IMG/VR virus record: IMGVR_UViG_3300037472_000016 | Span: 1-64,000 of that record | Reading direction: 5' to 3' (one strand) | Origin: a virus | Length of the DNA: 64,000 bases | Part shown: in pieces, positions 3,423-8,991 of the stretch | Numbering within the stretch: position 1 is the stretch's first letter | Layout: the number at the start of each line of letters is the position of its first letter | The notes under the pieces: generated by a model | Databases searched by the model: none | Told to the model about the DNA's origin: nothing | Seen by the model: the letters and a program-made list of their open reading frames with translations, nothing else | Made by a program: the position numbers and the translations under genes

Positions 3423-3947
3423 CTAAATTGCGCTACCCCGAATAACAATCCAAATAAGGGCTTGAATTGTCCGATTAGTCATTCCCGTTTTACGAGCAAT
3501 AACACTAACCGCCTCAGACATTTCGCGGTATTGCGTTTTATTAGGAGAATCCGAATTGACTAATGCTGCACGCATCATCCAGATATCAATAACAATTGCA
3601 TCCTCATCGCCTGCAATAGCACGAGCGAATGCATTAGTCTTAGGGCCACGCAATGCGTCAAATCCATTAGTAATAGCTTCATTAGCCATACGGATATTGT
3701 TAGGCAAGCCACGGACTTCTAAGCCTAATGAGAATGCAATGGCTTTCGACACGTTGGATGCCCAACGCTCACGAGGTGAGAATGCAGAAACTACACTGGC
3801 ACCAACCTCTACGCTGACATTTAGGTTCTCTGCCACTTCACGAGCTACGTTCTCAGCATCGTTATACCAAGTGGATGCATCTTCAATCTGTCCGAGGGTA
3901 GCACGAGCAACCAAGGCAGAGAATCGGTCGGTGTAGATATCAATCAT
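3423..3947 (-). CDS. HhH/DNA-glycosylase-like phage protein, 174 aa
   Basis: By far the largest leftward gene. N-terminal helices contain a WY-NDA segment, then VVSAFSPRERWASNV (48-65), a LRGPKTNAF motif (about 98-107), and AIVIDIWMMRAA (about 116-127). It ends in a helical region with VIARKTGMTNRTIQAL that looks helix-turn-helix-like. The 'A.LSPr..We.N...A' and 'GPKt.aF..al.Gd...v..D.w..ra' pattern recalls HhH-GPD glycosylase-like proteins found in actinophages. Catalytic residues cannot be asserted. It could repair or edit modified bases, or just bind DNA. AAAGGG lies 8 nt before the ATG. Confidence 0.7.
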   Translation of the reverse strand: MIDIYTDRFSALVARATLGQIEDASTWYNDAENVAREVAENLNVSVEVGASVVSAFSPRERWASNVSKAIAFSLGLEVRGLPNNIRMANEAITNGFDALRGPKTNAFARAIAGDEDAIVIDIWMMRAALVNSDSPNKTQYREMSEAVSVIARKTGMTNRTIQALIWIVIRGSAI

Positions 3948-4467: not shown

Positions 4468-4545
4468 TTAGCAATAAGGTATGCTGCAAATGCTAAACGG
4501 TATAAACAATGCAATTACCAATAACACGATAAACAAATACTTCAT
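4468..4545 (-). CDS. 25-residue membrane peptide
   Basis: MKYLFIVLLVIALFIPFSICSIPYC: one hydrophobic helix with two Cys near the end. The ATG overlaps the stop of 4542-4685 (ATGA), which is the main reason to call it. It could be a lipidless anchor peptide; no function can be assigned. Confidence 0.5.
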   Translation of the reverse strand: MKYLFIVLLVIALFIPFSICSIPYC

Positions 4546-4685
4546 GATACTAAATGTCCAAACTCTTCTGGCATATATTTAGCGGCATCAGCATAAGTGA
4601 CAATACCGTCATACTCATTACAGGTACGACAAATGTATTCCCCTGGGTCTTTGCCACAGTAAATACAAATGGTTTTATCTTCCAT
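4542..4685 (-). CDS. zinc-ribbon peptide, 47 aa
   Basis: MEDKTICIYCGKDPGEYICRTCNEYDG...: CxxC at 7-10 and CxxC at 19-22 form a four-Cys zinc knuckle, followed by a helix. It is a paralog of the gene at 6631-6750 (shared ICxxC..EYxGI..Y.DA..Y). AAAGGAA lies 7 nt from the ATG. Such ribbons usually mediate nucleic acid or protein contacts. Confidence 0.75.
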   Translation of the reverse strand: MEDKTICIYCGKDPGEYICRTCNEYDGIVTYADAAKYMPEEFGHLVS

Positions 4686-4711
4686 TTCTATTCCTTTCTT
4701 TATCACTAACA

Positions 4712-4834
4712 TTACCGAGTGGTAACGGTTAGCGCTCCCATTTCCATAAAGGTATCAATAGCAGAGTTTACTGCCCAAGGGTCAACCTCAATGCTGAGGG
4801 GCGATGCATTTGCGAACGTTGCAGTGATTTCCAT
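4712..4834 (-). CDS. hypothetical protein, 40 aa
   Basis: MEITATFANASPLSIEVDPWAV...: short and mildly hydrophobic, with no motif. The start is preceded by AAAGAGAAAATCTA. The promoter at 4865-4873 has a -10 box 31 nt upstream of the ATG. Unknown function. Confidence 0.6.
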   Translation of the reverse strand: MEITATFANASPLSIEVDPWAVNSAIDTFMEMGALTVTTR

Positions 4835-5115: not shown

Positions 5116-5139
5116 TAGATTTCCTCTTCCTTTTCCTCT

Positions 5140-5645: not shown

Positions 5646-5686
5646 GATTTTCTTCTTTCTGTTAGATTCTTTTTTGCTATGTCTAT

Positions 5687-5927: not shown

Positions 5928-5960
5928 CTGGGAGTTGTCTGTGAACTCCCTGTGAGCCTA
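5928..5960 (+). repeat. three 11-bp units
   Basis: CTGGGAGTTGT, CTGTGAACTCC and CTGTGAGCCTA are contiguous. The last contains the stop codon (CTA on plus) of the leftward gene 5958-6053. Confidence 0.7.
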
Positions 5961-6053
5961 GCTAACGGCTACCATATATACCGCCGTTCCGCAATTCCCA
6001 CAGGCACGGATGAAGGTAGGGTACTGGCACTTGGAGCACTTGTATTCTGTCAT
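5958..6053 (-). CDS. 31-residue zinc ribbon
   Basis: MTEYKCSKCQYPTFIRACGNCG... carries CSKC (6-9) and CGNC (18-21), a minimal four-Cys zinc ribbon. GAGGAAA is 4-9 nt before the ATG. Promoter at 6077-6106. Likely a nucleic-acid or protein adaptor; unknown target. Confidence 0.65.
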   Translation of the reverse strand: MTEYKCSKCQYPTFIRACGNCGTAVYMVAVS

Positions 6054-6630: not shown

Positions 6631-6750
6631 CTATGCCGTTAGATAGTCCATAGCGTCTCGGTATCCCATGATACCCTTGTACTCACCACAGCGACGGCAG
6701 ATGGTGGATTCTACTGGCATAACGCAGAAGATGCAGACTTGTTGTTCCAT
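6631..6750 (-). CDS. zinc-ribbon peptide, 39 aa, paralog of 4542-4685
   Basis: MEQQVCIFCVMPVESTICRRCGEYKG... has CxxC at 6-9 and 18-21, then a short helix (YRDAMDYL). It shares this layout with the gene at 4542. The ribosome site is weak (AGAG). Unknown function. Confidence 0.65.
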   Translation of the reverse strand: MEQQVCIFCVMPVESTICRRCGEYKGIMGYRDAMDYLTA

Positions 6751-6821: not shown

Positions 6822-7090
6822 CAGGTTTAGGGCCTCGCACTACCAAAATTGAAAAATAAAATAAAAACCTTTTCTCACTTATGGGGTGGTACCTGTAGTG
6901 TGCTCACTAATTAACTGTGAATTTGCTGTGAGTTTACTGTATGGTACAAATCAACAATATTTTCAGATTGTTCCCAAAATAGACTTAGCCAGATATCCGG
7001 CTGTCACATCTTGTCACAAATAAATATTTTTTCAGATTTTCAGAAATGTGTATTTTTCCGGGTATCAACAACATCCTCTTGACACAATAG
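6822..7090. other. gene-free AT-rich segment
   Basis: No gene is visible. It holds three 11-bp units at 6915-6947 (CTGTGAATTTG, CTGTGAGTTTA, CTGTATGGTAC) and a near-perfect palindrome AGCC-A-GATATC-C-GGCT (6987-7002). A direct repeat TGTCACA-TCT-TGTCACA and several TTTTCAGATT words are also present. Composition and repeats would suit an origin or a regulatory hub; neither is shown. Confidence 0.4.
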
Positions 7091-7120
7091 AAAAAGCCCC
7101 CATGTGAAATACATGAGGGC
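7091..7120 (-). terminator. rho-independent terminator
   Basis: GCCCTCATGT...ACATGGGGGC hairpin (7096-7120) with five-base loop, then TTTTT on the minus strand. It ends the predicted RNA above. Confidence 0.8.
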
Positions 7121-7224
7121 TTAATCTATATATCGGGACTGTCTCGTAACCGAGCAAGCGATTATATTTTATTTGGCCTTGTGGTTAGGACAGTCCCAGT
7201 CTGAACATTTGCAGATTTTCATCT
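7091..7224 (-). ncRNA. predicted small structured RNA, about 134 nt
   Basis: A consensus promoter ends at 7231, giving a start near 7224. The transcript carries GGGACTGTC (7189-7197 on plus as its complement) pairing over 9 bp with GACAGTCCC, which complements 7135-7143. An inner CTCG-GTTA-CGAG hairpin lies inside. It ends at a strong rho-independent terminator. There is no convincing open frame (only a seven-codon ATG without ribosome site). It is not a tRNA: the enclosed length is 63 nt and a T-loop is absent. Role unknown. Confidence 0.65.
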
Positions 7225-7230
7225 AGCTAT

Positions 7231-7259
7231 ATTTTAGCACTGTATTTTAAAAGTGTCAA
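7231..7259 (-). promoter_or_regulatory. consensus promoter of the small RNA
   Basis: TTGACA (7254-7259), 17-bp spacer, TGC-TAAAAT (7231-7236 plus TG): near-perfect sigma-70-type promoter on the minus strand, one of the best in the left arm. It lies downstream of the stop of 7282-7476. Confidence 0.8.
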
Positions 7260-7281
7260 CATTGCGAGGGTATCAAGAGTG

Positions 7282-7476
7282 TTACCAATGTCCTATAGGA
7301 CACTTAGCCTTCTTAAGCGTAGTCTTCAAAGCCATAAAGCACCCACACTTCTTACATCTTGACCCAGTAAAGAAGGGACAGGTCTTACATATTTCAAGCC
7401 GGTATTCAGCCAATTCTTTTTCTGATCTAGGCTCTTTAGGATTAAACAAGTCAGTAAACTTAACATCATCACTCAT
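7282..7476 (-). CDS. phage zinc-ribbon protein (CxxC...CxxCGC), 64 aa
   Basis: Cys pairs: CKTC, then CKKCGC and KCP near the end (MALKTTLKKAKCPIGHW). This 'CxxC-(8-10)-CxxCGC-x(4)-K...CPxxxW' protein is a very common small phage zinc protein of unknown function. The Shine-Dalgarno AAAGG is 20 nt from the ATG but 9 nt from a four-codon ORF (7473-7487) whose TGA overlaps the ATG. Confidence 0.85.
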   Translation of the reverse strand: MSDDVKFTDLFNPKEPRSEKELAEYRLEICKTCPFFTGSRCKKCGCFMALKTTLKKAKCPIGHW

Positions 7477-7599: not shown

Positions 7600-7960
7600 A
7601 CAGACTCCTATTGGGCACATCACCCCTTCGGCTAGTCTATTTTTCGCGGTATTGGAGGCATCGCCTCTCTTGATTATTTTCTAACAATCACTCTAGGGGA
7701 TAACACCTATCTAGCTATCCGGCTATGGGGATAGGGGCTAGTGGGCTATGGGGCTAGTGGGCTAGGGGTTTGTGGATAGCTGTTTGTGGCTATTCATTTG
7801 TGGCTATCGTTGAGTATTGTGATACCGCGTTCATTAGAGCGTTAGTGGATAGTGTTTCTCTCTCACGCGAAAACTAAGCCCGAACTTACTCTCCCGCCGA
7901 GACAATTCTCTCGAACTTGCCTACTTGTTTAACGAGTGTTTCTCCGTATATCATAAACTA
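7600..7960. repeat. gene-free switch region with GGCTA/TTTGTGGCTA repeats
   Basis: No gene is seen here. At about 7716-7815 GGCTAGTGGGCTATG-like units alternate and then pass into three TTTGTGG(C/A)TA units. This lies exactly where transcription changes from leftward to rightward. It may serve as an origin, a packaging site or a transcription barrier; none can be chosen from sequence alone. Confidence 0.5.
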
Positions 7961-7976: not shown

Positions 7977-8339
7977 ATGTTCGAAGCCAGCTTACCCGCC
8001 CTCAATCTCCTAGTCGTTCAACAGGTTTTGGGAATCGCTATCGCCTCGGCATCAGTAATAGGAATCTTGGGTGGAATGATTCGCTGGGTAATCAAGCATT
8101 ACCTTAAAGATATTAAGCACGAACTCTTGCCAAACAGCGGTAAATCAATGAAAGATCAGATAACAAGGCTCGAAAGAAGGCAAAGCGAAGAAAGAATTCT
8201 TCTGGAGAAGAACACAGAGATATTCACTAAAAAGATTGACGACAACAGAATTTCTCTGGAGTCAAAGATTGACCACATGAACGAAGAGAACATGAAGAGG
8301 TTTGACAACCTGTATCAGATCATCATCACCAAGCTCTAG
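7977..8339 (+). CDS. single-span membrane protein with coiled coil (possible holin)
   Basis: 120 residues: hydrophobic helix at about 10-38 (LLVVQQVLGIAIASASVIGILGGMIRW), then VIKHYLKDIKHELLPNSGKSMKDQITRLE, and a long charged coiled coil (70-118). The NGGxSxKDQ-like turn resembles DUF2746-type phage membrane proteins, often near lysis genes. First rightward gene. A holin role is inferred; the endolysin is 8 kb away. Confidence 0.7.
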   Translation: MFEASLPALNLLVVQQVLGIAIASASVIGILGGMIRWVIKHYLKDIKHELLPNSGKSMKDQITRLERRQSEERILLEKNTEIFTKKIDDNRISLESKIDHMNEENMKRFDNLYQIIITKL

Positions 8340-8586: not shown

Positions 8587-8991
8587 ATGAATAATCTATC
8601 TAACAATAGAGCGAACAAGGGTTTTGGTTCTCTACCGGCCAACTTGAAGTGGAACGTTGTTAGAGGAGACACTGCTTCTATCCTAGTTCAGTTTTTAGAG
8701 AACGATGAAGAGACCTCTTATGATACAGACACATGGACATATATTTCAAGTGCCTATGACCATGAGACAGGAATCACCTACATCCTTGATACTGAAACCA
8801 TCGGGAGTTCTGTAAAGATTACAGCAGGGCCAGAGACTACTTCTCTATGGGGCACTCGGTTCTTAGATAAGGTTGCAGACCTTTCTTTTGATCTACAGGT
8901 AACGATGGACTTCGATGTTGTCTGGACTCCCATTGTCGGCAAAATAAGTGTTATAGGAAACGTTACCCTTTACGACCAGGGTAACAGTTAA
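8587..8991 (+). CDS. BppU-like Ig-fold tail/baseplate module
   Basis: 134 residues with the signature WNVVRGDTASILVQF near residue 22-36, then alternating beta strands and ...ISVIGNVTLYDQGNS. The 'RGDT..f.v.f' start of an immunoglobulin-like domain is typical of BppU N-terminal domains that attach receptor-binding proteins to the tail. It shares this layout with 11621-12001. Near-leaderless start. Confidence 0.65.
   Translation: MNNLSNNRANKGFGSLPANLKWNVVRGDTASILVQFLENDEETSYDTDTWTYISSAYDHETGITYILDTETIGSSVKITAGPETTSLWGTRFLDKVADLSFDLQVTMDFDVVWTPIVGKISVIGNVTLYDQGNS

Follow-up and report, generated by a model that had tools for sequence, protein, structure and literature searches.

The window, a 64,000-nt stretch of a 95,215-base virus record, carries on the minus strand of that record a short phage RNA whose independent transcription, termination and structure are well supported as a prediction from the sequence, and the predicted transcript is probably real. 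We favor reading it as a leaderless mini-mRNA for a putative metal-binding-type microprotein, with a structured and terminated 3' end, and assign this reading a probability of roughly 0.55. It is the likeliest reading because ORFs in relatives parallel it in place, size, Cys content and, across four lineages, the spacing from -10 box to ATG. The initial annotation had described an untranslated phage RNA; the short, terminated, structured RNA stands as a prediction, but "untranslated" is at odds with a Cys-rich ORF at a leaderless position and with the parallels in relatives. The unit and its upstream neighbor comprise:

7282 to 7476, minus strand: DUF6171 family gene of 64 aa, the upstream neighbor and the query for related loci
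7231 to 7259, minus strand: promoter, with TTGACA (7259-7254), a 17-nt spacer and an extended -10 TGcTAAAAT (7239-7231)
7222 to 7225, minus strand: predicted transcription start zone, placed from the position of the -10
7169 to 7222, minus strand: 17-codon ORF, MKICKCSDWDCPNHKAK plus stop, predicted leaderless, its ATG 8 nt past the -10 hexamer
7134 to 7198, minus strand: rod hairpin of 20 pairs (7198-7178 with 7158-7134), sharing sequence with the latter half of the ORF
7143 to 7154, minus strand: alternative CTCG/CGAG hairpin, forming without the 5' arm
7089 to 7122, minus strand: intrinsic terminator, a 12-pair stem (7122-7094) followed by T5

Promoter, terminator and rod hairpin

The promoter agrees with 11 of 12 consensus positions, has TG ahead of its -10 hexamer TAAAAT (7236-7231, minus strand) and ranks first among 14 promoter-like sites in 5-10 kb, bearing out the earlier proposal of a TTGACA promoter with 17-nt spacing and supplying the strand that had been left unstated. 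The sole exact match to TTGACA-N14-TGNTANNNT in the 64-kb window is this site at 7259-7231 on the minus strand, where 0.10 matches would be expected. Such a match appeared at least once in 9 of 100 shuffled windows, which lends something to the view that promoter, terminator, hairpin and ORF assembled by chance and form no working unit, as does the lack of conservation found in relatives. Set against this, four individually unlikely parts fall inside 170 nt and in the right order, and we regard chance as very improbable.

With at most two mismatches allowed, TGCTAAGCTATAG-like -10 sites occur on the minus strand at 5136, 5683, 6809 and 7227, which accounts for four of the six matches in the window. 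The sites at 5136, 5683 and 6809 precede neighboring small genes, with 24-62 nt between -10 and ATG, so the 7259-7089 unit is the odd one out of this promoter set, a fact that cuts both ways. The leader AAAGAATCTAACAG is found in exact copy before neighboring small genes, at 5659, 6308 and 6765, and several small genes here, with this leader and TGCTAAGCTATAG-type -10 sites, are apparently individually promoted mini-genes.

Other features of the surroundings were also recorded. The 21-nt stretch directly upstream of the -35 (7259-7279, minus strand; beginning CTCTTGATACCC) has a 95% match on the same strand at 1581-1600. The minus-strand ORFs at 4542-4712, 5958-6053, 6631-6750 and 7282-7476 form a cluster of tiny Cys-rich, zinc-ribbon-like frames. 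Between divergent gene blocks, 7706-7852 holds overlapping repeats of the GCTAGTGGGCTATGGGG and GTTTGTGGATAG types, possibly an origin or regulatory region. A pair of GGACWGTCC-like palindromes 52 bp apart was considered as an operator and rejected: the window holds 7 matches with at most one mismatch against 10.2 expected, so the palindrome is not a phage-wide site.

At the other end of the unit, the GC hairpin with TTTTT noted previously proves to be the minus-strand terminator, and the 9-bp stem pairing 7135-7143 with 7189-7197 is present as part of the longer 20-pair rod. The inner CTCG/CGAG hairpin (7154-7143), by comparison, is absent from the minimum-energy fold of the full RNA and forms when the 5' arm is removed. 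Relative to shuffled sequences, the whole RNA has a folding z-score of -6.1, the body minus its terminator one of -3.5 and the isolated hairpin one of -4.9. Among minus-strand 69-nt windows of 40-50% G+C, 14 of 3439 fold as well as the rod, whose stability is unusual, though not unique in the window.

The ORF contains the 5' arm of the rod, the 3' arm follows the ORF's stop, and the separate parts differ in predicted fold: once the 5' part is taken away, the 3' part folds as the CTCG/CGAG hairpin while the terminator keeps its form, so the 7198-7134 fold could respond to translation. This arrangement is what a dual-function RNA would need, with a peptide made and the rod itself regulatory, refolding when a ribosome covers the 5' arm. 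Its pairing also goes far beyond what shuffling the 37 nt downstream of the stop produces: none of 3000 trials reached the rod hairpin energy. However, no target or partner was identified, the hairpin is missing from the mini-ORFs of relatives, and of 3000 synonymous versions of the ORF, 432 equal or exceed the native one in fold stability; the last result shows a codon choice not tuned for the rod and is neutral as to the ORF. A dual role appears quite improbable.

The 17-codon ORF at the predicted 5' end

The leaderless mini-mRNA reading centers on the ORF that begins 8 nt after the -10 (7222-7169, minus strand), in the face of which the earlier statement that the element holds no ORF is incorrect. 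Its product, MKICKCSDWDCPNHKAK, contains three Cys and one His in the pattern C-x-C-x4-C-x2-H. An in-frame stop lies just ahead of the ATG at 7222 (minus strand), which falls at roughly +1 to +4 relative to the inferred start, that is, within about 3 nt, and with the start so placed from the -10 there is no room for a ribosome-binding site before it. The ORF lies 60 nt past DUF6171 on the same strand. Four tiny Cys-rich ORFs were found in the window, and 7222-7169 alone has an adjacent -10. When the transcript was shuffled with dinucleotide frequencies preserved, 1457 of 20,000 shuffles held any start-proximal ORF of 10-25 aa, and 2 of 20,000 held one with at least three Cys and a CxC, these motif criteria having been chosen post hoc, after the MKICKCSDWDCPNHKAK ORF was seen. 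The ATG at 7222 sits within a stretch that is alike between the 7259-7231 promoter and the 6809 promoter, and because the gene behind the latter has a leader, this ATG could be fortuitous.

Homologues of the RNA were sought with a single-sequence covariance model in 87 sources (the window, L002-L081 and, of the capsid-query loci, L193-L198 only); the model recovered the element itself, and the next hit, at E = 0.19, was the reverse strand of the element. The element occurs once in the whole 95,215-base record, blastn of 241 nt against 50 relatives' records gave only chance-like matches of 14-24 nt, and no RNA relative was found in phage records. No Rfam family reached its gathering score for the element, and a scan of the window was likewise empty. 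A tRNA scan of the window found none, in keeping with the lack of tRNA features already remarked upon. Roles as a sponge, antisense regulator or decoy, once suggested for this RNA, gain no support, with no second copy in the record and no conserved RNA in relatives.

For the peptide, two patterns of the MKICKCSDWDCPNHKAK motif gave 0 matches in viral contigs, the best phage-record match (E = 3) was not meaningful, and no Pfam or PHROGs family was assigned. Twenty-four pattern matches in bacterial genomes look like chance and were set aside. Neither the RNA nor the peptide motif was detected in the 80 loci obtained with DUF6171, and in the six closer capsid relatives examined (L193-L198) the syntenic slot is occupied by other genes. 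The proteins at 7977-8336, 3426-3947 and 8587-8988, used as viral-contig queries, yielded no confirmed loci.

These results bear on whether the unit is a true non-coding regulatory RNA, in which case the short ORF would be coincidental and the rod hairpin the working part. An ORF without a sequence homologue would suit that explanation, as would the unit's own promoter and terminator and a structure far more stable than shuffled sequence. The absence of an RNA homologue from the covariance search and of an Rfam match runs the other way, as do the rarity of a start-proximal Cys-rich ORF among shuffles and the parallel predicted leaderless Cys-rich mini-ORFs in relatives. We consider a non-coding RNA unlikely.

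The same layout, a leaderless position and three Cys codons, then a hairpin and terminator, could also describe a cysteine-responsive leader peptide with an attenuator, like the mycobacterial polycysteine leaderless short ORFs; in the parts of PMC4633059 and PMC9094748 drawn on here, such short ORFs are known from actinobacteria. Yet no regulated gene follows in the same transcript, the small gene that comes next on the minus strand (6750-6631) has a promoter-like site to itself, and the terminator is predicted to be unconditional, forming with and without the 5' part, with no fold that switches it. An attenuator is thus highly improbable.

Cysteine-rich mini-ORFs in related viral loci

The DUF6171 query returned 80 loci, forming 70 groups at 90% identity over 400 nt. 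The gene at 8587-8991 is also carried by 78 of them (L027 and L075 lack it), so these loci share this genome region. The record's major capsid protein shares 42.6% identity with its counterpart in Streptomyces phages and 79-100% with those of the 80 viral-contig loci kept in the capsid comparison, from which we infer that the host is probably an actinobacterium.

Within the first 1300 nt past DUF6171, the related loci hold 18 tiny ATG-initiated ORFs rich in Cys, where 60 shuffle sets averaged 6.0 and peaked at 13. In five of these (L032, L045, L046, L048 and L067) a -10 box lies 4-9 nt ahead of the ATG, compared with a shuffle mean of 0.2 and a maximum of 2; elsewhere, such a box precedes 0 of 23 on the structural side (374 kb) and 1 of 13 farther downstream. 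As L045 and L046 are near-identical, the five represent four lineages, in all of which the -10 box stands 5-6 nt before the ATG. With four lineages counted, a close -10 is associated with Cys-rich rather than other tiny ORFs of the same stretches (Fisher p = 0.001). Across the whole downstream side the density of Cys-rich mini-ORFs (32 in 326 kb) exceeds that of the structural side (25 in 388 kb) only modestly.

Examples of the relatives' peptides are MCGCQENCPCKSEQQPN, MKCQGCGIKGKPCECDYGL, MKIIHKMTCGCNDKCPCKTQPE and MSETPVKNNPECKCDNCKCGKN, and similar peptides with other start contexts occur in L031/L036, L041, L049 and L052/L053. The 22-aa peptide of L067 has no match among 50,697 phage records. 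Ten of the 18 ORFs look like one kind, all opposite to DUF6171, and the other eight are unlike these and on the same strand. The first ORF listing past DUF6171 covered 79 of 80 loci, the remaining one having less than 300 nt beyond the gene. Left out of the counts were the MFKEECC-type ORFs (L002, L003, L013, L015, L017, L019 and L035) and L078-L080, excluded by the maximal-ORF rule because their frames are open upstream, making them tails of longer frames. L031 was also removed by this rule and enters solely through the first ORF listing and its near-duplicate L036. In the seven MFKEECC-type loci, the longer open frame downstream of DUF6171 closes with a MFKETCCDNCSC-type tail rich in Cys.

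The pattern C-K-C-G-K-N-stop matched 28 viral stretches: 9 encode such microproteins, 2 are ambiguous (L213 and L226) and 17 are of other kinds. The type, of 13-22 aa and ending C-x-C-x2-C-x-C-G-K-N, recurs in L031, L036, L203, L207, L208, L209, L219, L224 and L227. The C-x-C-x4-C-x2-H of the window peptide does not contain the C-x-C-x2-C-x-C core of these microproteins, and its ORF lies on the same strand as DUF6171 rather than opposite to it within about 1.1 kb. With the opposite strand, no sequence homology and a motif defined post hoc, we do not claim membership of MKICKCSDWDCPNHKAK in the relatives' microprotein family.

Proposed mechanism and comparison with known systems

In our picture the unit stands alone as a mini-gene, carried by an aquatic, actinophage-like virus. 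Transcription by RNA polymerase and a sigma-70-type factor would start at about 7224, leaving the AUG at, or within about 3 nt of, the RNA 5' end, so that ribosomes could start without a leader. That ribosomes start at the 5' AUG of actinobacterial leaderless mRNAs is established. For mycobacteria, PMC4633059 reports that a 5'-terminal ATG or GTG suffices to initiate translation without a leader. The predicted 17-residue peptide MKICKCSDWDCPNHKAK would then be made, and its C-x-C-x4-C-x2-H, judged by its residues, would suit one metal ion, probably zinc. The rod hairpin and intrinsic terminator would end the transcript and plausibly shield its 3' side, and a translating ribosome is predicted to open the 5' arm of the rod. 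The peptide would presumably act in trans, as a small phage product among several tiny Cys-rich proteins encoded nearby. A wider proposal is that aquatic actinophages carry Cys-rich metal-binding microproteins of 13-22 aa, several made from leaderless mini-mRNAs beside DUF6171, and that the window version adds a translation-refolded rod, making a dual peptide-and-RNA regulator; taken whole, it is speculative and distinctly unlikely.

ORFs of 13-22 codons without a Shine-Dalgarno site tend to escape gene callers and RNA finders alike. If translated, the unit and its counterparts would constitute an unannotated set of Cys-rich microproteins of aquatic actinophages, several from leaderless mRNAs, and would provide candidates for phage takeover or metal handling that are short and open to testing. 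"Untranslated phage RNAs" of actinobacterial phages should have their 5' ends checked for an AUG.

Literature surveyed at the level of titles and abstract openings held nothing on phage leaderless microproteins or phage metallothionein-like peptides, which is no proof of absence. Metallothioneins are short proteins with CxC motifs; MKICKCSDWDCPNHKAK is likewise short with a CxC, but it is far shorter, has three Cys only, and its metal binding is putative. Polycysteine leaderless short ORFs were reportedly described by Canestrari et al. 2020 as cysteine-responsive attenuators. The window unit resembles them in being short, predicted leaderless and provided with several Cys codons, and differs in its unconditional terminator and in having no regulated downstream gene. 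With the relatives' tiny Cys-rich ORFs (13-22 aa) it shares the DUF6171 neighborhood, the size class and the CxC motif, whereas theirs lie on the opposite strand, differ in sequence and have neither a rod nor a close terminator. Compared with the leaderless small-protein mRNAs of Mycobacterium, as presented in the portion of PMC4633059 drawn on here, where small proteins without a nearby gene are also reported, the unit differs in being phage-borne and self-terminated, in its rod hairpin and in that its translation is predicted; it is like them in the AUG at the predicted 5' end, the small ORF and the actinobacterial setting.
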